A DNA stretch of 64,000 nt from Glandiceps talaboti. Its lineage: Eukaryota > Hemichordata > Enteropneusta > Spengelidae. Location of the stretch: NCBI RefSeq assembly GCF_964340395.1, contig NC_135560.1:8603598-8667597 (forward strand), in the 5' to 3' direction. The translations under genes were made by a program, and so were the position numbers. Positions 14,471 through 63,665 of this stretch are shown piece after piece. The notes under the pieces are model-generated. The model worked only from the letters and a program-made list of their open reading frames with translations. It was not told the origin of the DNA and did not search any database. Position 1 is the first letter of the stretch; each line of letters begins with the position of its first letter.

Positions 14471-17400
14471 ATGCCTGCTGTAGAAACTGAGATGGAGTCT
14501 GTTAATGAAATGAAAGATGTTAGTGTTGATATGTCTGAGAACAAGGATAATATCATCAGCCGTGTTGCTGGACTGCCCATGGTGAATTCTGCCATTGGAC
14601 AAGTGACTAATATGTACACAAAGACCAAGGAATATAATGGTTTGGTCAAGTATACCTTGGAAGCTGCTGAGAAATCTGTTGTCACCGTCGCCAGTGCTGC
14701 AATGCCAGTTGTTAATACACTTGAAAAACCAAGTAAGTTTTTTTAAAGGAACATTCCTTCATCAGGGTTTTTGGTACAGATGATTGATATTGGAGTTAGT
14801 GAGTAGAGAGGAAAAGTCACTGACAATGCAATTGGCCATTCCAGACTGCAAACAGGAAATTGAGAATACAGCGACCTCACTCAAATTGGGGGTATCATGT
14901 AAATCAGGGATGTTTTTCATATTGTTCAGACACTGAGGAAAGCAGCAGTGCTGTATGATTAACTGAGTAACCTATACCATGTATACCCCAAGATACACAC
15001 AGACAGGAAGTAGAGTACCACCATGGCAAATTTTGGAAAGGTCTATTGAAGTATCTGTAAAACAGATACAACTACTTAGAGTACCAGTACTTGCATTTGA
15101 ATCCCTTTGTGCAAACATCAGAAAACAGCAAACAACATGTTTGGTGTTAATATGAATGACATCTGTTATAAGTTTTATCCTCTATTTGTTATAAGAAATT
15201 CTCTGTACTCAAAATAGTAGGTTTACATTTGATTGTAAGCTACTGTGTATTAAACATTGATGTTTTGTTCTCCTTTCAGTTGGAATGGCTAACGACTTTG
15301 CCTGTAATCAGATGGATAAGTTAGAGGAAGCTTACCCAGTCATTACTCAGCCTTCTGATAAGGTAAAGAGAAAGACATGCCATATCAAGTGTGTTTAAAT
15401 AAAGAGTGTATATGGGAAGTGCAGTGTTTAGATTGTGAAATGGCATCAATCGTGTGCTGCTTGATGATATCCAAATTTCACTGTATGCTGAGTGTATGTA
15501 ATGTGTATGCAAGAAAAAATTTTCATGGTTGCTGACACACTCAACCTCTGTTTCTAGTCCTTTATCACTACATTTTATAGATTTTGTGTGTGTGTTAAAT
15601 TGAACATGCTGAGACAATCACTGCATTAATATTAAATAATGAAATAAATAACACACTGGGGTACTCACTATTTATGATACTTTCAGGTATACAGCAGTGT
15701 TGTTGATGGCAGCAAACGTGTATGGGATAACACCAAGTCCATCGGTACTAGGACCATCGATAATTTGATGAATACCAAAGTTGGTCAAGCTGTGTCTGCT
15801 AGTGTGGACATTAGTTTATCTATGTCTGAAATTGTGGTCGATCATTGTCTTCCTCCTGATGCAGTAGAACGAGGTAAGGGTCAATTGAGTACAGGGTAAA
15901 ATTTGATTGGGTACCCCAAGAAAAGTAACTCGGGTAGATTTTATCTACTCACTCAGCTTCAAACAAAACCACTGATAATGAAGAAAAACATATTGCAAAA
16001 TGCCTACTACAAACAAGTATTTGTATTGTCTACTTGAATTAATTTCTTCAAATCTTGTCATTTACTTTTCTTTTCCGTAGAGGAGGATATGGCTGAAGCT
16101 TCCAAGGAGAAAACTGATGAAGAGAAGCAGCTGTGCATTGCTCCTGTTCAACGTGTAGTTAGCCTTACTGGTAAAGTGCGTCACCGTATTTATGTACGAG
16201 CTATGGCTAAACTGCAGACTGCTCAAAAACGTAGTCAGGAAACTGTAGAAAAGTTGCATTATACAGTCAACCTGGTAAGTCAACTAGAGAGTCAATTATT
16301 GTGTGTAAGTCAACTAGATTGTAAACTATGATGTCATGTTCTTAAAATTTTGTGACACATCCAGCCGTCAGACTTGCCGTACTGATTGACAATCCCTTTT
16401 CCAAGTTGTCATGACAATTGGTCCAGCTACTAGGAATGTGTATACAGAGAATCAAATACTGTTACCAGTACTAGTAGGTTGTATTCACCAATAAGTGATC
16501 ACAGGTCTCCATCCCAAAAGTACCATTTTATATGTGAAAGTCATTCATTTATGATATCTCTATGGTGAGGACAATTTCATTCACACCAGGCAGGTGTGAC
16601 AGAATACAATTTGTACATTTCAATGTGAAAATGTAATGTACATGTCATCTGTTTCAGATTGAATATGCCAAGGCCAACATTGATACGACCAATCAAAAAG
16701 TTCGTGACCAAATGAACAGTGCACAAGAAACATTGTGGACCACTTGGGATGATTGGACAACTGAAGATGGGCAAGGTGAAGAAGGTGGTCAAGAATCACA
16801 GGTAAGTGGTTAAATGATCTGGTATGTGGTGATATGATCTCAGGTATGTGGAAAAAATGATTGTAAGGGGAAATGATTTCAGGGTTTGTGGTGAAATGGT
16901 CTAATGTACGTGGTGAAATGATTTCAGATATGTGGTGAAATTATTTTCATAGATCAGTCTGCACATGATGATACAATGTTGATCCTTGTTCAACTTTTTA
17001 GCCATTATTCCTCACCAGGTGACAAAATCATGCATCTTCAGCAACAATTATGTTTCCCATGAAGGTACTGAAAATGGAATCTCAGAAATTTAAAATTTGA
17101 ATCCTACATTTAAATTCTAGGTACCCACAATAGTATTTTACCACACACTTAGAGGGTCAAAATAGAACAAAAAAGTCTTGACTTATTCTCACAAATAACT
17201 AAGTAATGCATGTGTAGTACACGGACTGGATGTCGAGGTGACAACTAAGAAATCAAACAACAGTTAATGGTATGCTGTGCCTATTTGGTTAATTGTTATT
17301 TCGGCAATAGGAATTACTATTACCATACCAGCAGTACAAAAATGTCCTAAATCTTCAATGAATTATGAATTTTTGGCAGAATTCAGAAGAGAAAACTGTG

Positions 17401-24921: not shown

Positions 24922-27323
24922 CTATCCAAGCAGAACTTCAAATACAATTGTTACTGTATTCAATATTATTAAAGGCACTGCAAAAGATAGAAAATTATTG
25001 TTAGAAAGATTTGAAGTCCAAAAGTACAAACTTCACATGAACTAGGCTGACTACTGATAACTGCTTGTCAATATAGTGCCTTACATCACATTGCTATTGA
25101 CAGCTGCTTGTCAATATAGTGCCTTATATCACATTGCTATTGACAGCTGCTTGTCAATATAGTGCCCTATATCACATTGCTATTGACAGCTGCTTGTCAA
25201 TATAGTGCCTTACATCACATTGCTATTGACAGTTTCTTGTCGATATCAGCATATCTTATCCCACATGCAAGCCAGGTTGAAGGTATTCAAATGAACAAAA
25301 AACATGGGCTTCTACCTGGATTGTAGACTGTCCTGTTATCAATGTGACTTACCCCATGATTGCCCTAATACCAATGTCAATTAATACCCCTTATGACTGT
25401 CCTCACATCAATGTCACTTACCCCTCATGACTGTTATGACATCAATTTCACTTACCCCTCATGACTGTTATGACATCAATTTCACCTACCCCTCATGACT
25501 GTTATGACATCAATTTCACTTACCCCTCATGACTGTTATGACATCAATTTCACTTACCCCTCATGACTGTCCTGACATGTCACTTACCCCTTATGACTGT
25601 CCTGACATGTCACTTACCCCTCATGAGTCATAACATCAGTCACTTACCCCTCATGACTGTCATAACATGTCACTTACCCCTCATGACTGTACTGACATGT
25701 CACTTACCCCTTATGACTGTCCTGACATGTCACTTACCCCTTATGACTGTCATAACATCAGTCACTTACCCCTCATGACTGTCATAACATCAGTCACTTA
25801 CCCCTCATGACTGTACTGACATGTCATTTACCCCTTATGACTGTCCTGACATGTCACTTACCCCTTATGACTGTCATAACATCAGTCACTTACCCCTCAT
25901 GACTGTCATAACATCAGTCACTTACCCCTCATGACTGTACTGACATGTCACTTACCCCTTATGACTGTCCTGACATGTCACTTACCCCTTATGACTGTCA
26001 TAACATCAGTCACTTACCCCTCATGACTGTCATAACATCAGTCACTTACCCCTCATGACTGTACTGACATGTCACTTACCCCTCATGACTGTACTGACAT
26101 CAATGTCACTTACCCCTCATGACTGTACTGACATGTCACTTACCCCTTATGACTGTCATAACATCAGTCACTTACCCCTCATGACTGTCATAACATCAGT
26201 CACTTACCCCTCATGACTGTACTGACATGTCACTTACCCCTCATGACTGTACTGACATCAGTCACTTACCCCTTATGACTGTACTGATATCAGTCACTTA
26301 CCCCTTATGACTGTACTGACATCAATGTCACTTACCCCTTATGACTGTCATGACATCAGTCACTTACCCCTCATGACTGTCCTGACATCAGTCACTTACC
26401 TCTTATGACTGTACTGACATCAATGTCACTTACCCCTTATGACTGTCATGACATCAGTCACTTACCCCTCATGACTGTCATGACATCAGTCACTTACCCC
26501 TCATGACTGTCCTCACATCAATGTCACTTACCCCTCATGACTGTCATAACATCAGTCACTTACCCCTTATGACTGTCATGACATGTCACTTACCCCTTAT
26601 GACTGTCCTGACATCAATGTCACTTACCCCTCATGACTGTCCTGACAGATCTTATAAGATTAACTATTTGTGCTTTCATGCCAGGATCCTCACCAAAACC
26701 ACCTACAGTATGATCACCTCCCCATCCAACTAGAAATAAGAAATATATAGTGTACAGTTAAACTCGATAAAACAACAGACTCTGTTCTTCTCTGATACAC
26801 TGGTAGTAAAGTATTGCTGTTTAGTATGACAGCCTCCTTGGTGATTGACATTCCAGTGTAAACCATGGAAGTTTCACCGACTGTGACACTTCCATGGTAA
26901 AACTAAAGCCTGTTGGATCTGAATAGTTTAAGTTGTAGACCTTCTCAGGCGTCTGTCTAATTGTCTGTATCAGAAGTTTCTTGCAGACTTGGCTCAGTGC
27001 CTGATCAAAATGCACATGTCAAAGCTTATAACCTTTCGTTAATTTGAAAAATGAGGCAATGCGAAAAAATTACACGATAATTGATAGGTCTCCAACTTCA
27101 AATCGGGTGCATACGTTCAATGATGTGTGGTGTAAAACAGCTGTGTACTTGAACTCGCTGCTATGTCTGCGAAGCTTCGAGCTACAACGGCATGTAGCTT
27201 GGAGAATATGCATACACTGTCCATAACCTTACCTTTGTTAAGAAATCTTTCTTCGTGGAGAATTGCCACAGCGTTGATCATTAGTAAAATCGCCTCGAAC
27301 AGCGAGTAGATCGTGAAAGCCAT
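24922..27323 (-). CDS. IER3IP1: immediate early response 3-interacting protein 1 (Yos1 family)
   Basis: Three exons on the minus strand: 27323-27233, 26729-26628 and 24977-24922 (stop TAG), joining in phase 1 at both introns. The product is 82 aa, the same length as human IER3IP1. It starts MAFTIYSLFEAILLMINAVA and continues ILHEERFLNK. The middle is GWGGDHTVGGFGEDPGMKAQ, then LIRSVRTVMR, and the end is VPLIILNTVTIVFEVLLG. This pattern of two hydrophobic segments around HEERFL and IRSVRTVMR-P is diagnostic of the family. IER3IP1/Yos1 is a small ER-Golgi membrane protein acting in early secretory transport. Intron 2 (24978-26627) is mostly a minisatellite that begins on the exon 2 donor. The gene is head-to-head with the STARD5-like gene. 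Its short length and split exons make it easy to miss in automatic annotation. Confidence 0.95.
25061..25235. repeat. 43-bp minisatellite, about four copies
   Basis: The unit begins ctgcttgtcaatatagtgcc and ends ...cattgctattgacag. Copies start at 25061, 25104 and then every 43 bp. It lies in IER3IP1 intron 2, near the exon 3 acceptor. It does not copy the acceptor. Confidence 0.9.
25400..26645 (-). repeat. donor-seeded minisatellite in IER3IP1 intron 2 (39 copies)
   Basis: Units of 30-34 bp. On the minus strand each reads gtcaggacagtcatgagg, then gg and GTAAGTGACAT. The first unit on the minus-strand side (26621-26645) is the real end of exon 2, encoding SVRTVMR, and its donor. The other 38 march into the intron, with 5 more degenerate copies at the far end. 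By hand count, 37 of 39 keep GTAAGT; exceptions include GTAGGT near 25480 and GTAAAT at 25825. Any splice to an inner donor would add an in-frame stop (AGG GGT AAG TGA). Confidence 0.92.
25671..26042. repeat. 124-bp higher-order repeat, three copies
   Basis: Within the minisatellite, four monomer types in a fixed order (30+30+32+32 bp, ending catgt, catgt, catcagt, catcagt) recur at 25671, 25795 and 25919 with very few differences. They are a recent block amplification. Confidence 0.85.
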
Positions 27324-44702: not shown

Positions 44703-46532
44703 AGGGTGACCCTAAAACGAATGACAACCCGAATGACGGAAAACGAATGACAGCATTTCCAGTATGTAAACAGTGGAATGACACCCTTTTCTACATTCCG
44801 AGCAGTTAGTTTAATGACACCGTCTGCACTGTAGATCCAGTGGAATGACAGCCACCACTCTATAAAATAAGTGGAATGACAGCACTTCCAATGCTTTGGA
44901 ACTGGAATGACAGCGTTTCCATTATGTAAACAGTGGAATGACACCCTTTTCTACATTCCGAGCAGTTAGTTTAATGACACCGTCTGCACTGTAGATCCAG
45001 TGGAATGACAGCCACCACTCTATAAAATAAGTGGAATGACAGCACTTCCAATGCTTTGGAACTGGAATGACAGCGTTTCCATTATAATAATAATAATAAT
45101 AATAATCTTTATTTATACTGGATAGTTCTTTAAGCATATAAACACTTGTCTCCCAAGAAGTCCAGTGAGGGCCATCCCTCATGGGTTCAGTGTTAATGCA
45201 GGAGGAAACCGGAGTACCCGGGGAAAACCTGCGTTGTTCGGTAGAGTCAAACTGAACGACACTCTTCTTACTTACAGCGTGGTAAATTTAACAGAACCCT
45301 GAATGGGGTTCGAACCCCGACCGCAGTGGTAAGAGGCAAGTGGTTTAACCACTCGGCCACCGACAACCCGTATGTTATGTAAACAGTGGAATGACACCCT
45401 TTTCTGCATCACAATGACAGCCGCCACTCTATAAAATAAGTGGAATGACAGCATTTCCAATGCTTTGGAACTGGAATGACAGCATTTATATTGGGTAAAC
45501 AGTGGAATGACACCCTTTTCTGCATTCAGTTAGTTGAATGACACCCTCTGCACTGTAAAACCAGTGGAATGAAAGCCGCCACTCTATACCATAAGTGGAA
45601 TGACAGCATGTCCAATGCTTTGGAACTGGAATTACAACATTTCTAGTATGTGCACAGTGGAATGACACCCTTTTCTACATTCAGTTAGTTGAATGACACC
45701 CTCTGCACTGTAAAACCAGTGGAATGAAAGCCGCCACTCTATACCATAAGTGGAATGACAGCGTTTCCAATGCTTTGAAACTTTGGATTTGCACTGCAGG
45801 GGGTGTCATTAAACTAACTGAATGTAGAAAGGGGTGTCATTCCACTGTTTACCCACTGTAAATGCTGTCATTCCAGTTCCAAAGCATTGGAAATGCTGTC
45901 ATTCCACTTATCTTATAGAGTGGCGGCTGTCATTCCACTGGTTTTACAGTGCAGAGGGTGTCATTCAACTAACTGAATGTAGAAAGGGGTGTCATTCCAC
46001 TGTTTACATAATGGAAACGCTGTCATTCCAGTTCCAAAAGATTGAAAATGCTGTCATTCCACTTATCTTATAGAGTGGTGGCTGTCATTCCACTGGTTTT
46101 ACAGTGCAGAGGGTGTCATTCAACTAACTGAATGTAGAAAAGGGTGTCATTCCACTGTTTACATACTGGAAATGCTGTCATTCCTGTTTCAAAGCATTGA
46201 AAATGCTGTCATTCCACTTATTTAATAGAGTGGCTCTGTCATTCCACTGGTTTTACAGTGCAGAGGGTGTCATTCAACTAACTGAATGTAGAGAGGTGTG
46301 TCATTCCAGTGTTTACCCACTGTATATGCTGTCATTCCAGTTACAAAGCATTGGAAATGCTGTCATTCCACTTATTTTATAGAGTGGTGGCTGCCATTCC
46401 ACTTGTTTTACAGTGCAATGGGTGTCATTCAACTTACTGCATGCAGAAAAGGATGTTATTCCACTGTTTACACACTGTAAATGCTGTCATTTGTTTTCTG
46501 TCATTCGGGTTGTCATTCGTTTTAGTGTCACC
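44703..46532. mobile_element. 1.8-kb foldback transposon made of inverted ~155-bp arrays
   Basis: The ends are inverted copies: left agggtgaccctaaaacgaat, right (reverse complement) agtgggtgacactaaaacga. Both continue with 'gacaacccgaatgac'. AATTG flanks both sides, a possible 5-bp target duplication. The left half carries ~155-bp units (with 'agtggaatgacaccc', 'ccagtggaatgacagcc', 'aagtggaatgacagca') in one direction. The right half, from about 45790, carries them in the other. No transposase is seen. Many short frames rich in 'CCHST/WLSFH' are translations of the repeat. Confidence 0.85.
45085..45374 (-). mobile_element. tRNA-derived SINE inside the 44703 element
   Basis: Read on the minus strand, the head has tRNA-like pol III boxes. 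The A box TGGCCGAGTGG (about 45349-45359) and B box GGTTCGAACCCC (about 45306-45317) resemble tRNA-Ser/Leu. A body contains 'ttttccccgggtactccggt' and 'ttcctcctgc', a core seen in broadly distributed animal SINE superfamilies. The tail is (ATT)n, 45085-45106. The site matches the neighbouring empty repeat unit ('tccattatgtaaacag'), with TTAT repeated at both ends. Confidence 0.85.
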
Positions 46533-49011: not shown

Positions 49012-50464
49012 ACACATTCTGAGACTTTGTTTAAAATCCTGCATTCACCTTTGTAATCTAACGTCAAAACCAGTCCAATAATCTGAGGCTCTTACAAGGT
49101 AAGTGTATTACCAGGTTCTTTAAGATATACAATTACTATGATAATAGGGCCATCTTAATTATCATTACCACTAATATATATCACTCGATTCCTATTCTGT
49201 TAGATGAAATGTGGCTGGCATTTTTGAGTCATACATTTATTTTCTTTTGACATTATATTGAACTAATTTACATCAAACAAGAACGGGATACATGGCAATG
49301 CATTTTATTAAGAGTTTTTTCAGTGTTATTTAGACCAATTTGATTTCTTTTAGCACATATTTAGGAAACTGAACTGGAACAATACAGTATAAAACTCTCT
49401 TTAGATAACATGTGCATCACAATATTTGCAAATACAACTAAAATGACATTAAACTGTAACACTACTAGTATAATGTACTAATACAATATTGAACAGAAAA
49501 CAAAGACTCAGTTGGTCTGCTGATCATTTTACAAGAGTTATTCAAAGTGTAATTCATTTACAAGTATATGTTGTTTTTTGGAAAGGCAATGCACTGGTTA
49601 ACATAACATTTTGTTTTAACTGGTGTTTGTGTATATATATATACACACAATATACAAATTGATTATATATATATACTGGACAAAGTTGGTATTAAGTGTA
49701 TTATGTACAGTTTTGTACTTGGTATGGAATGTTAACGCACAGGAAGAGTATTCCAAAAAAAATTTATTCGGGTGGGGGTACTTGAAAATTTATTCGGGTA
49801 GGGGGGGTACTTGAAATATTTGGGGCTTTGGCAGGGGGGGGGGGGTACTTGAAAAATTTTGAAAAATGGCAGGGGGGTACTTGAAAAAAAATGGGGTTTT
49901 TACAAAAAATCTCCCGACCACCCCCCCCCCCCCTAACAAGTTTTTGTGAAAGCAGCCTAAATTATAAATAAATCCAAGAGAAAATACAAATGGTGGTTTT
50001 CCTCTAGTAGCCTCTGTATGTAGATGTCTACAAACAAACATGTGGTTGTAGTATGGGCTCACCAGCTTCTCCAGAGATAGCTGACATCGCATTCCACAAA
50101 CTTGAGTGTCGCATTATTGAAACATACGTGGATAAAATATCACTTTGGACACGTTTCAGAGATGTCATATTAATGCTATTCCGTGGCACTAAAATTGAAC
50201 TCAATATTTTAAGTGAAAACATAAATGAAATGCACCCAACATTAACATTTTCGTTGGTCAGCTCAGAAACGGAAGTGGTATGCCTTGATTTGGTGATTTA
50301 CAAAGGTCATAGGTTCAAACAAACAAAAAAGGTTGGATATCAAGACTCACACCAAACTAGTCTAGCTCCTATACAGTATCGATCGTTACGATTTGTACAA
50401 TGTGTGGTTATAGAAACCACATTCTGGTCATCCAGACTACACCAAACTGACTGACACTTTTCAG

Positions 50465-59736: not shown

Positions 59737-62700
59737 TGCACACACGCACACACACACAAATTACACCATGCCTGTAACACTACTGAACTTTACTACTGAA
59801 CTTCATCAGTTTAGTTGTGCTAAAAATGAACTAACTGCCAGCATGCAGACATCAAATGCAGACTGAGACATCAAAAAATTGGCGCCTGCATGTCTGCGTC
59901 TAGTTGCAGTACTACAAAATGGTTTATTCAGTTCCGTTTAGACAGAATGTAGCCAGAAATTGCAATGATGCTATCTTAATGTGTAGAATGTGCAGTTTTT
60001 TTTATTGGTTTCTGCTTGGTTGTATCAAACGGAGCCACTGAACACTAATGAAATGGGCAATAGTAACTACAAATGTACGAAAACTTGAAAACTTACCAGT
60101 GGGGGTAATTGCCCATATGTTTCTGGAAGAACTTATGGACTAGATTGCATTTAAAATGACTATGTTTAATAAATAAATTAGTTTGTACTTTGTGAATCAT
60201 ATTAATCTTTTACTTTAAAGAAAGGAAATTTATACCCAAACACTTTATAAGATACTGGTTAAATCTATTGCAAATACAGAAGTTACTGTGGGGCATACTG
60301 CAGAGAATTTGTGGTGGTATGTCTGCTCTGGCCATTTCAAAGTTGCAATATTACATGTATGTAGTAATGATTTGATATCAAAGTCGACTACAGATATGAC
60401 AGGGTTAGATATCTCACTGCATTTAGTAAACGCATGATATTATTAGGAGTAGAGTTATGTGAAGAAATTATAGCTAGGTCAGAAAGGTGAAGGCCACTTG
60501 TTATGTATAGTCCTATGAAAAAAAAAGAAAAAACCCAAAGTAGTCAGATTAAAAATAATAATTTTATTAAAATTAGATGCCATCAAAATTTAATAATAAT
60601 AATTTTTAGTAATAATTAAAACATTCTTTCAATGACATTTTGTACTTCCTTAATCAGCAATGCAACATTACATAGTGTGATGACCCCATGTCATAATTAG
60701 CATATTACTGTTATGCTAATTAGGTTTAATTAGCATGGATTTGGGGTCAAAAGACAAAGTCGAAAACAGCTGGACAGATTTCCTTCAAATTGACATTTTG
60801 TGAGCCAATTGTATGATACTTCAAGCGGCTAGTTAATTTAGTTTTGTCCAAAATAAAGTGATCTCATGGTACAATGTACCAGTTTTTATTTGTATATTTG
60901 TACTGTCGATCTTGTTGTTTTACTGAAATAAACTAAACTAAACTAAACTAATAAGATACATCAATCAGTTCATGTCACTCCATCCTCATCAGCTGCACTG
61001 GCGACTGCACTCTATTCAAGGGGTTAACCTTTCTATGAAGGTGCCTGTCGCGTACCTCATGGTGTGGTCATATGAAGAGATATTGTTAAATGATAAGTCA
61101 AAATTTTGACAATACTAAATGTTGTAAAAACGATGGAAGGTAGAAACTAGAGCTAAAAAATGTTAAAGTAAATGATATAGCTAGAAAGTAAGCTTACTAA
61201 GTGACATGTCAGATCTGACAAAATTACAACTATAAATAAATATTTTTTTTAATAAATTGAAGGAACGTCATGGTGTACATCATGGGATATTTGGAGCTCA
61301 TTATGATGAAGGTCGCATCACAAGGTCACTGGACCCTGATCCAATCTGGGCTGAACTTGGACAGAGATCCATTGCAAGATACAGAGACCTAGAACAGAGA
61401 ACAGGTAGGTGATGTGTTCTGATTCCCATTGCAAGATATAGAGACCTAGAACAGAGAACAGGTAGGTGATGTGTTCTGATTCCCATTGCAAGATACAGAG
61501 ACCTAGAACAGAGAACAGGTAGGTGGTGTGTTCTGATTCCCATTGCAAGATACAGAGACCTAGAACAGAGAACAGGTATAGGTGGTGTGTTCTGATTCCC
61601 ATTGCAAGATATAGAGACCTAGAACAGAGAACAGGTAGGTGATGTGTTCTGATTCCCATTGCAAGATACAGAGACCTAGAACAGAGAACAGGTAGGTGAT
61701 GTGTTCTGATTCCCATTGCAAGATACAGAGACCTAGAACAGAGAATAGGTATAGGTGATGTGTTCTGATTCCCATTGCAAGATACAGAGACCTAGAATTG
61801 AGAACAGGTAGGTGATGTGTTCTGATTCCCATTGCAAGATACAGAGACCTAGAACAGAGAACAGGTAGGTGGTGTGTTCTGATTCCCATTGCAAGATACA
61901 GAGACAGGTAGAACAGAGAACAGGTATAGGTGGTGTGTTCTGATTTCCATTGCAAGATACAGAGACCTAGAACGGGAACAGGTAGGTGATGTGTTCTGAT
62001 TCCCATTGCAAGATACAGAGACCTAGAACAGAGAACAGGTAGGTGGTGTGTTCTGATTCCCATTGCAAGATACAGAGACCTAGAACAAAGAACACTGATG
62101 TAGGTGTCTTGAAAAGTTTGTTGATGTAACTAAATAGTTGTAATATGTAATAATTAATTAATTTGTAATTTGCATAATTAATGATTTTTGGTAATAAAGG
62201 CAATATCTTAAATACATGCAAGCTTCAGATAGCATACAGTATGACATTATTAATTTGCCAATTATAGCGGTGTACGTATCATGCATGATAGCTTTAGGTC
62301 AGAGTTTTGCATTCCCAAAATTAATGTATGTAGGAGCAAAAATCTAAAGGCTGAGCCCTTACGAAAGACATTCAGTTTATAGATGCTATAATACAGTTAC
62401 AAAGTAGAACTCTTGTCTTTTATTTTATCACTTAGATACAATGTAGTTAACGTTGGAAACTTGTTTCACCGGAAAACAATGCTGTATGTTTTGTATTATG
62501 CTTTCCTTGTACAAATTCTTTTGGATAGGAGTCCAGTTCTTTCGTGAAGTCGGCCAAATGTCAGTAAGCGCAAAGGGTGATGCATACATAGAGAATGTGA
62601 AACGAAATACCCAAACCATGAAACTAGAAGCCAGCGTGTTGGACAAAGAAGGAGTTCAGAATATCTACCCATTCTTGTCAATTAATCCTGATGATGAAGC

Positions 62701-63665
62701 TGTTCTGCAGAGCAAAGATGCCGGCCATGTGAGTCCCAGGGCACAGATTGTAGCACAACAAACTGCTGCTCATCTACAGGGCTGTGACATCATTGATGAT
62801 GTTGTAGATCAGGTGACTGAAACCAACCAATCAGATGGTTCTAAATGCATGAAAGCAATTACAGCCAAAGGTCAAGTTATTCTGGCCGGACGGATTTTGC
62901 TCACAACAGGAGCTTTTACAGGATTTAGGAACTTACTTCCCAAGGGAAAAGAATTGGATGTAACATTGTTAACGCAGACGGTTGCTTTGATTGAAGTCAC
63001 ATCAGATGATGCAAAACGACTAAAGGATATGCCATGCCTCATTGTGAAACACAATGAAGGAACAAAGTATGATGGCTACATACTGCCACCAATCAAATAT
63101 CCAAATGGTAATTAATATTTTCAATTTTCTTTCAATTTTCTTGAATAAACACATCCGGAATAATGTTGCAAAAAAATGGCTCCCATTCTAAAGTTGATTC
63201 CTTTGGTGGACTTTTTTGTTAAGGGCTGTATTCAAGTAAGTAAATTCAAACTAAATTAAAATTTCCTAGTCTTTTTACTGGTATTCCTGGTGCTGTTTTA
63301 GAAAAGGTATGTTTAGACTCATATTTTGAGCTCTGCAGAACCAGTGACGTAAACATGGGTTGTTGTGACGTAGAATATTGACCAGCATATATAATCCATA
63401 TTTTCTGCAGTGGAGAATAATATAGAATTTGTCTATCGAACTATTAAATGATTTTCAAATGGTACCAAGCTGAATGATCATTTTTGGTTATTAACTATTA
63501 AATGTTTTGGACTCCTGACAGGGAAGTACTATTTAAAAGTTGGACATGGCAATGATTTTGAGAGAGAACTGCACACTGCAGCAGAAGTTGCTGACTGGTA
63601 CAAGACAGACGGCGATAAATTTGTACACCAGCCTCTCCTGGATAAAATATTTCATTTTGTTAAAG
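55451..63665 (+). CDS. FAD-dependent oxidoreductase (DAO family), 5' part; runs off the window
   Basis: Exons found: 55451-55609, 61263-61404, 62529-63107 and 63522-63665, ending at a donor AAAG|GTAAAT, so more exons lie beyond the window. The joined part is about 341 aa. The N-terminus has the dinucleotide-binding fold YYDICIVGAGMIGSAAARHV (GxGxxG), followed at the end of strand 2 by KVCLIGPKEP. Next come YDEGRITRSLDPDPIWAELG, RYRDLEQRTGVQFFREVG, the substrate-domain stretch GHVSPRAQIVAQQTAAHLQG, and LLTTGAFTGFRNLLP, typical of DAO/sarcosine-oxidase-like amine oxidases. Substrate unknown. The start was chosen at 55451 because an in-frame TGA lies 18 bp upstream (55433-55435); a second ATG at 55475 is also possible. 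The intron after 61404 starts with a repeated-donor array. Confidence 0.85.
55653..56030. mobile_element. TTAA-type MITE, interrupted copy
   Basis: Begins ttaaagctgtattgcctg and, after the foldback insertion, resumes with 'tattgaatcacatgtggggt' as in 33478-33857. The right end is unclear. Confidence 0.5.
55671..55905. mobile_element. 235-bp foldback element with 9-bp target duplication
   Basis: TATTGCCTG flanks both sides (55662-55670 and 55906-55914). The element is nearly all stem: arms of about 105 bp (caatctgattaaaatccgat... and its inverted copy ending cagattg) around a short loop near 55775-55795. A 9-bp duplication is typical of Mutator-like elements. Confidence 0.9.
56400..56660. repeat. 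'cccatagcaacag' repeat family, second locus
   Basis: Three units with 'gcaacaagaccacaccaata' or 'catagcaacagtcaaatg', related to 31100-31400. The inverted third locus is 59550-59690. Confidence 0.7.
57238..58101. mobile_element. 864-bp element with GTCCCCGC ends and four 150-bp internal repeats
   Basis: GTCCCCGC (57238-57245) and GCGGGGAC (58094-58101) are inverted ends flanked by TA. The left end folds as a nested hairpin (GTCCCCG..CGGGGAC outside, CGGAC..GTCCG inside). Inside, 'gatacgatccaatatggc' recurs near 57405, 57555, 57705 and 57855 with 150-152-bp spacing. The short ORFs across it are repeat translations. Confidence 0.8.
58380..61262. other. oxidoreductase intron 1, remaining part
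   Basis: AT-rich, no exon seen. Contains (C)20 then (A)17 at 58398-58437, (CA)n at 59698-59758, and an (AACTA)n tail at about 60930-60950 that may end a degenerate retroelement. Confidence 0.5.
61371..62100 (+). repeat. donor-seeded minisatellite after oxidoreductase exon 61263-61404 (13 copies)
   Basis: The 57-bp unit is the last 34 bp of the exon (attgcaagatacagagacct...aacag) plus the first 23 bp of the intron (GTAGGTGATGTGTTCTGATT+ccc). Copy 1 is the real exon end. By hand, 9 of 13 keep GTAGGT, 3 have GTATAG with a 2-bp insertion, and the last has lost the donor. Using any inner donor would read through an in-frame stop (ACA GGT AGG TGA). Confidence 0.93.

Follow-up and report, generated by a model that had tools for sequence, protein, structure and literature searches.

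A minisatellite made of an exon end and its 5' splice site in IER3IP1 intron 2 of the acorn worm Glandiceps talaboti, and related arrays elsewhere in the genome

Tandem duplications of exon/intron boundaries have been termed 'mirages' in the globin genes of amphioxus, with Adh3 and other loci cited as further cases (PMC3087553). The globin units measure 150-160 bp; at BflGb6, where the acceptor is affected, three or six of them are present depending on the haplotype, and the donor of BflGb9 occurs as a duplicate. RT-PCR suggested that the globin mirages are regularly spliced (PMC3087553). Intron 2 of the IER3IP1 gene of the acorn worm Glandiceps talaboti (genome of 590 Mb) holds an array that resembles BflGb6 and BflGb9 in being a minisatellite-like tandem duplication of a boundary, but differs from these cephalochordate mirages in belonging to a hemichordate, in its 30-34-nt units and in its 39 copies (PMC3087553). 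It lies in a 64,000-nt stretch of DNA (C13:8603598-8667597) that was analyzed as a whole and is referred to as the window. The unit straddles the exon/intron boundary, splice dinucleotide included, and the beginning of the array coincides with the true splice junction of a genuine gene, as judged from the Yos1 domain and from an exon join equal to the annotated protein. In all likelihood, the array is itself a mirage, i.e., a boundary duplication that has grown by slippage or unequal exchange and is tolerated through exon-proximal splicing.

The IER3IP1 gene and its array

Joining the three exons by hand (Table 1; both introns are phase 1) gave a product with 100% identity over 82 aa to the annotated G. 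talaboti protein 'immediate early response 3-interacting protein 1-like', carrying the Yos1 domain (PF08571, E 2.8e-32). TRF described the array by a period of 32, 39.7 copies, 89% match and a score of 1653; given 39 copies, this degree of match and a score to be compared with a TRF threshold of 50, a chance origin can be dismissed. By dissection of the minus strand, 39 donors were placed in register from 26627 to 25421, 38 of them inner ones, with spacings of 32 nt (15 cases), 30 nt (14) and 34 nt (9). GTAAGT is found in 37 of the 39 and a variant in two, the contexts being GGG/GTAAGTGA in 36 cases, GAG/GTAAGTGA in one, and GTAAAT and GTAGGT in one each (here and below, a slash marks the splice junction). 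A repeat unit combines about 19 nt of exon end with about 11-15 nt of intron including GTAAGT, the genuine end of exon 2 serving as first unit. Two decayed copies were recognized by eye deeper in the intron, near 25387 (GTATTA) and near 25351 (GTAAGTC). TRF also returned a higher-order period of 124 bp, corresponding to four units, which is a sign of block duplication.

The initial annotation had described intron 2 as a tandem array of exon end plus donor, seeded on the end of exon 2, from which the outermost donor is chosen. The array and its seeding on the real exon end are borne out by the dissection, and the annotated protein is the exact product of splicing at the outermost donor. Equating the intron with the array goes too far, as the array makes up about 75% of the 1650-nt intron, which also houses a second, 43-bp array.

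Table 1. Positions and identification of exons, donors and arrays; ranges are window coordinates, L numbers denote loci elsewhere in the genome
Feature	Position or locus	Strand	Details
IER3IP1 exon 1, coding part	27233..27323	-	MAFTIYSLFEAILLMINAVAILHEERFLNK plus first base of next codon; donor AAAG/GTAAGG
IER3IP1 exon 2, 102 nt	26628..26729	-	end ATG AGG G/GTAAGTGA, phase 1
IER3IP1 authentic (outermost) donor GTAAGT	26622..26627	-	junction matches annotated protein
IER3IP1 probable mirage minisatellite, 39 in-register donors, unit 30/32/34 nt	25385..26647	-	TRF and dissection
IER3IP1 last in-register donor, copy 39	25416..25421	-	dissection
Second array in IER3IP1 intron 2, 43 bp x 4.3, unrelated to the former	25061..25246	-	TRF
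IER3IP1 exon 3	24922..24977	-	TTTTGCAG/TG CCT...GGA TAG
Perilipin-2-like exon	16658..16801	+	homology; end ...GGQESQ, donor CACAG/GTAAGTGG at 16802
Second window mirage, degenerate 22-nt x 7 array from perilipin donor	16795..16941	+	TRF
Sarcosine-oxidase / N-methyltryptophan-oxidase-like exon	61263..61404	+	end AGAACAG/GTAGGTGATG; start inferred
Third window mirage, 57-nt x 12.6 array, 36 nt exon + 21 nt intron	61369..62094	+	TRF
Next oxidase exon	62529..63112	+	GGATAG/GAGTCCAG; DAO domain PF01266; end approximate
IARS1 exon	L026		PDB E 4.4e-7
METAP2 exon	L047		E 9.8e-14
ACAD9/VLCAD exon	L049		E 2.4e-12
CMTR1 exon	L050		E 7e-6
Kelch exon	L046		E 1.7e-11
PKD-like channel exon	L042		E 1.5e-4, just under curated cut-off
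FN3 exon	L053		E 2.8e-5, just under cut-off

Arrays at other splice junctions in the window and the genome

Two more donor arrays occur in the window; the initial annotation had mentioned neither these nor the amphioxus precedent. The one in the perilipin-2-like gene has a consensus donor in its first copy only, its inner donors being mostly decayed. Annotated perilipin isoform X2 contains QESQVKEKTV, which would fit splicing from a donor located 4 nt downstream, still within the first copy (GTAA/GTGG, of the GTNNGT type). In the oxidase-like gene, the first donor at the exon end at 61404 reads AGAACAG/GTAGGTG, and joining it to the next exon gives a 100% match to the G. talaboti protein P0029. 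The window also contains, at 44745-46491, arrays of 155-160-bp units in opposite orientation that form a palindromic pair, with arms of 360 nt, 91% complementary and 92 nt apart. An open frame at 50011-50451 of the window resembles reverse transcriptase (PF00078, E 0.05, below cut-off) and looks to us like a Penelope-type element.

Might splice junctions be preferred seeds of minisatellites, e.g., owing to sequence bias or co-transcriptional structures, beyond what random placement delivers? In favor of this, three of the six window arrays with at least four copies begin at a known donor. Under random placement, a donor falls within the first unit this often with P 1.5e-5 (2e-4 within gene bodies), and any overlap of array and donor is reached with P 0.007 (0.14 within gene bodies), in a test that used 12 known donors, some with approximate positions. 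These values are suggestive rather than decisive, because constraint on the coding sequence would by itself limit the overlaps that are tolerated to the first unit.

The genome was then searched for a pattern of three strict donor octamers at a spacing of 8-38 nt. The octamer AGGTAAGT gave 945+917 matches (1862) and its reversed control TGAATGGA 483+330 (813); AGGTGAGT gave 727+652 (1379), and its reversed control TGAGTGGA, with 594+724 (1318), was about as frequent in arrays. The permuted controls yielded 165+135 (GAGTAATG; its reverse, 84+125) and 79+377 (GTGATGAG; its reverse, 209+103). As proof of a junction preference, the raw counts were rejected, since the reversed controls are too high and long arrays sway the numbers. 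Distinct loci are the fairer measure, because matches count units, and we relied on them and on exon edges instead. Among the matches listed, contig C1 has at least six distinct loci for AGGTAAGT and at least ten for AGGTGAGT, compared with at least two and at least two for the permuted octamers, which again speaks for a preference. The reversed octamer TGAATGGA is represented by at least nine C1 loci among the matches listed, five of which look like GGAT/TGAA-type microsatellites.

The upstream edge was read for 17 array loci, namely all six listed AGGTAAGT loci on C1, eight of the ten AGGTGAGT loci on C1 (two additional members of the L045 family were omitted), and the three listed loci on C2. 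In seven of the 17, the array begins at an exon's donor and the exon has a recognized homologue (Table 1); in five the exon is less certain, and in five none was seen. The L051 exon found no homologue in the searches and may resemble VPS54. At L028, L030 and L052, an acceptor-like site and an open exon are present, but the searches returned no significant homologue; the L030 exon ends one copy upstream of the first strict octamer. The L025 array is possibly exon-anchored, and it was, like L028, additionally scanned in one frame. No exon is visible on the strand concerned at the array edge of L027, L043, L044 and L048. L045 was rejected as an exon-anchored case, its exon-like reading lying on the opposite strand with the acceptor outside the repeat unit. 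This opposite-strand reading beside the L045 array (C1:20467050-20467950) is saccharopine-dehydrogenase-like (PF03435, E 0.0083, below cut-off), and the array family recurs at 20.50 and 20.53 Mb. Among the matches listed, exon-anchored arrays thus number four on C1 (35.9 Mb), or five with L025, for AGGTAAGT, and seven for AGGTGAGT on C1 and the initial 24 Mb of C2 taken together. Extrapolation to the whole genome gives about 130 exon-anchored arrays for these two octamers alone.

Array density was estimated by TRF from a 160-kb sample (C1, C2, C4 and C5, sampled at fixed positions in 16 pieces of 10 kb each), which contained 21 arrays with at least four copies, covering 13% of the bases. One of the 21 is an acceptor mirage (C1:2998605-3007052, L010/L054) of 58 bp x 148.9, whose unit carries a polypyrimidine tract and CTACAG/CTGTGACTG. 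In 147 units, the 28 nt surrounding the site show no more than two changes, and tract plus AG occur 97 times in exact form. The final copy leads into an EGF exon (Pfam EGF, E 5.4e-7), another EGF exon (E 1.5e-8) lies just upstream of the array, and the intron between the two is almost entirely array. Donor and acceptor mirages together mean that both intron ends are affected, as in amphioxus. By eye, no exon was seen at the edges of the sampled arrays L018 and L022. A 30-bp x 220 array in L017 (3461-10000) reaches the end of its sampled stretch.

Scaled up, 21 arrays per 160 kb correspond to about 77,000 genome-wide, and random placement would then be expected to produce about 700 donor mirages, with 150,000 introns assumed and units of about 35 nt. 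With arrays this dense, many minisatellites must hit splice junctions by chance, so that a preference for junctions is not needed; together with the high count of the reversed octamer TGAGTGGA, this makes such a preference doubtful in our judgment. We lean, if only slightly, towards the view that mirages number in the hundreds in the acorn worm genome, that they affect donors as well as acceptors and also housekeeping genes (IER3IP1, IARS1, METAP2, ACAD9-like, CMTR1), that at least one mirage has about 147 competing copies, and that the exon-proximal copy is spliced nearly always.

Probable origin and tolerance of the arrays

How an array arises can be followed among the oxidase paralogues. 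The junction was read in the window gene and 11 others, making up 12 oxidase loci that have the exon downstream of this junction. Copies number 13 in the window gene, if a decayed last one is included, and two in L039, the second of them imperfect. L031 has about 1.3, namely one copy and a partial one with 19 nt of the exon end. The remaining nine of the 12 (L032-L038, L040, L041) present a single donor and no duplicate. Copy number thus varies among paralogues as 13, 2, about 1.3 and, nine times, 1, and from this series it follows that the array derives from the exon boundary. As nine of the 12 junctions lack a duplicate, the single-donor state would most simply be ancestral. A short common GAT..CC stretch was noted by eye at the duplication seam. 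An unrelated 32-bp array is located deeper in the intron of L038.

The three array-bearing oxidases are near-identical in the junction tract, and at the exon end L031 and P0029 agree in all 32 aa; yet the three do not group in a tree of the whole proteins, which was poorly resolved and was rejected. The near-identical tract in ungrouped genes may mean that it was spread by gene conversion instead of descent. Three stretches of C13, near 8.66, 8.77 and 8.78 Mb, contain oxidase paralogues whose identity to the window gene is 91-93% in one exon and 62-66% in the next, a disparity that suggests local gene conversion.

For IER3IP1, we envisage that a short stretch across the exon 2/intron 2 boundary was tandemly duplicated to give a minisatellite, which slippage or unequal exchange would then have expanded, in part by blocks of four units. 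A slippage-type origin, one of the possibilities raised at the outset, gains support from the oxidase series and from the 124-bp period. Exon definition would select the exon-proximal donor, the mis-spliced RNAs would mostly be removed by nonsense-mediated decay (NMD), and the array itself would have no function of its own. Selection on the protein would keep the exon-proximal copy, leaving the remaining copies to drift and to be homogenized. The array is tolerated, in this scheme, because splicing keeps using the outermost copy, and the retention by selection of the exon-proximal copy only would also account for the intact first donor and decayed inner donors of the perilipin array. For both IER3IP1 and the oxidase, the annotated proteins, on which the assignment of first-copy use rests, agree with splicing at the first copy, which fits exon definition. 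The exon-proximal site therefore appears to win among near-identical competing splice sites. Accessibility was rejected as the cause of this choice, the first IER3IP1 donor ranking 11th of 39 in local folding. The IER3IP1 array is probably neutral.

The initial annotation had also proposed that use of inner donors adds an in-frame TGA, and this holds for donors 2-8, the range computed, all of which extend exon 2 to RSVRTVMRGK-stop. The distance from this stop to the last junction is 26 nt for donor 2, 56 nt for donor 3 and larger for donors 4-8. NMD is triggered, as a rule, by a stop located 50-55 nt or more upstream of the last junction, so that the products from donor 3 onward should be NMD targets. 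On this basis, the array could act as a splicing decoy or NMD rheostat, the inner donors being kept so that some IER3IP1 transcripts end in this way, are degraded, and thereby set expression. The 37 GTAAGT donors would be in line with that role. Moreover, variants common to at least two inner units occur in none of the 11 donor-core columns compared with five of the 19 others (P 0.08, hypergeometric), which weakly hints at donor conservation. Singletons in the 38 inner units are, on the other hand, no rarer in the donor core (3 of 418 cells) than in the other columns (4 of 722, a figure that counts both gap cells of one deletion). The decay of the inner perilipin donors and the nine oxidase junctions devoid of a duplicate likewise argue against a rheostat, as does the fact that the sole G. 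talaboti protein among 28 hits is the full-length form. Clear support is thus lacking for such a function, which we consider quite improbable.

Long near-identical arrays are error-prone in assembly, and an aberrantly assembled mirage has been reported from the draft amphioxus genome (PMC3087553), so that an artefact, or a collapsed or expanded repeat, has to be weighed as well. The IER3IP1 units, however, differ from each other by shared variants in the 124-bp higher-order arrangement, and assembly echoes would hardly account for the degenerate perilipin array or for the short arrays of the paralogues; we regard an artefact as highly improbable. The remaining proposal, according to which 39 donors in one intron, 37 of them GTAAGT, bind U1 and shield the IER3IP1 transcript from premature polyadenylation, is scarcely credible and was rejected, considering that neither AATAAA nor ATTAAA, the two hexamers searched, is present in introns 1 and 2, and that the same kind of repeat has also formed at an acceptor, a type of site not bound by U1.

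Comparison with known mirages

If a mirage grown by slippage is the correct reading and such arrays are as common in the acorn worm as we suppose, mirages would be no amphioxus oddity and would be widespread among deuterostomes. They would also amount to natural competition assays among dozens of near-equal splice sites; the choice between near-equal neighboring sites is usually studied with built minigenes. The 39 IER3IP1 donors, the roughly 147 EGF acceptors and the oxidase paralogues, with their 13, 2, about 1.3 and 1 copies, form a graded natural series. Arrays of splice sites show one way in which introns grow, and possibly a way in which exon ends shift.

A literature search covering open-licence papers found no hemichordate mirage, and as far as this search shows, the IER3IP1 case takes mirages beyond the lancelets. 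Its short units at an exon/intron boundary are like those of the amphioxus Adh3 mirages, which measure 10-72 bp and are said to leave splicing undisturbed, and for which length and somatic instability have been reported (cited in PMC3087553 and PMC3902484). Tandem repeats over 5' and 3' splice sites are likewise described for amphioxus PGBD5 and troponin C, the PGBD5 repeats being imperfect and of 60 and 108 bp, the latter a triplication (PMC3902484). A further parallel is the intron gain in the potato RdRp gene, where a tandem duplication is also tied to splice signals; there, the duplication is reported to create an intron, whereas the IER3IP1 array sits inside an intron that separates the same exons (PMC4974935).
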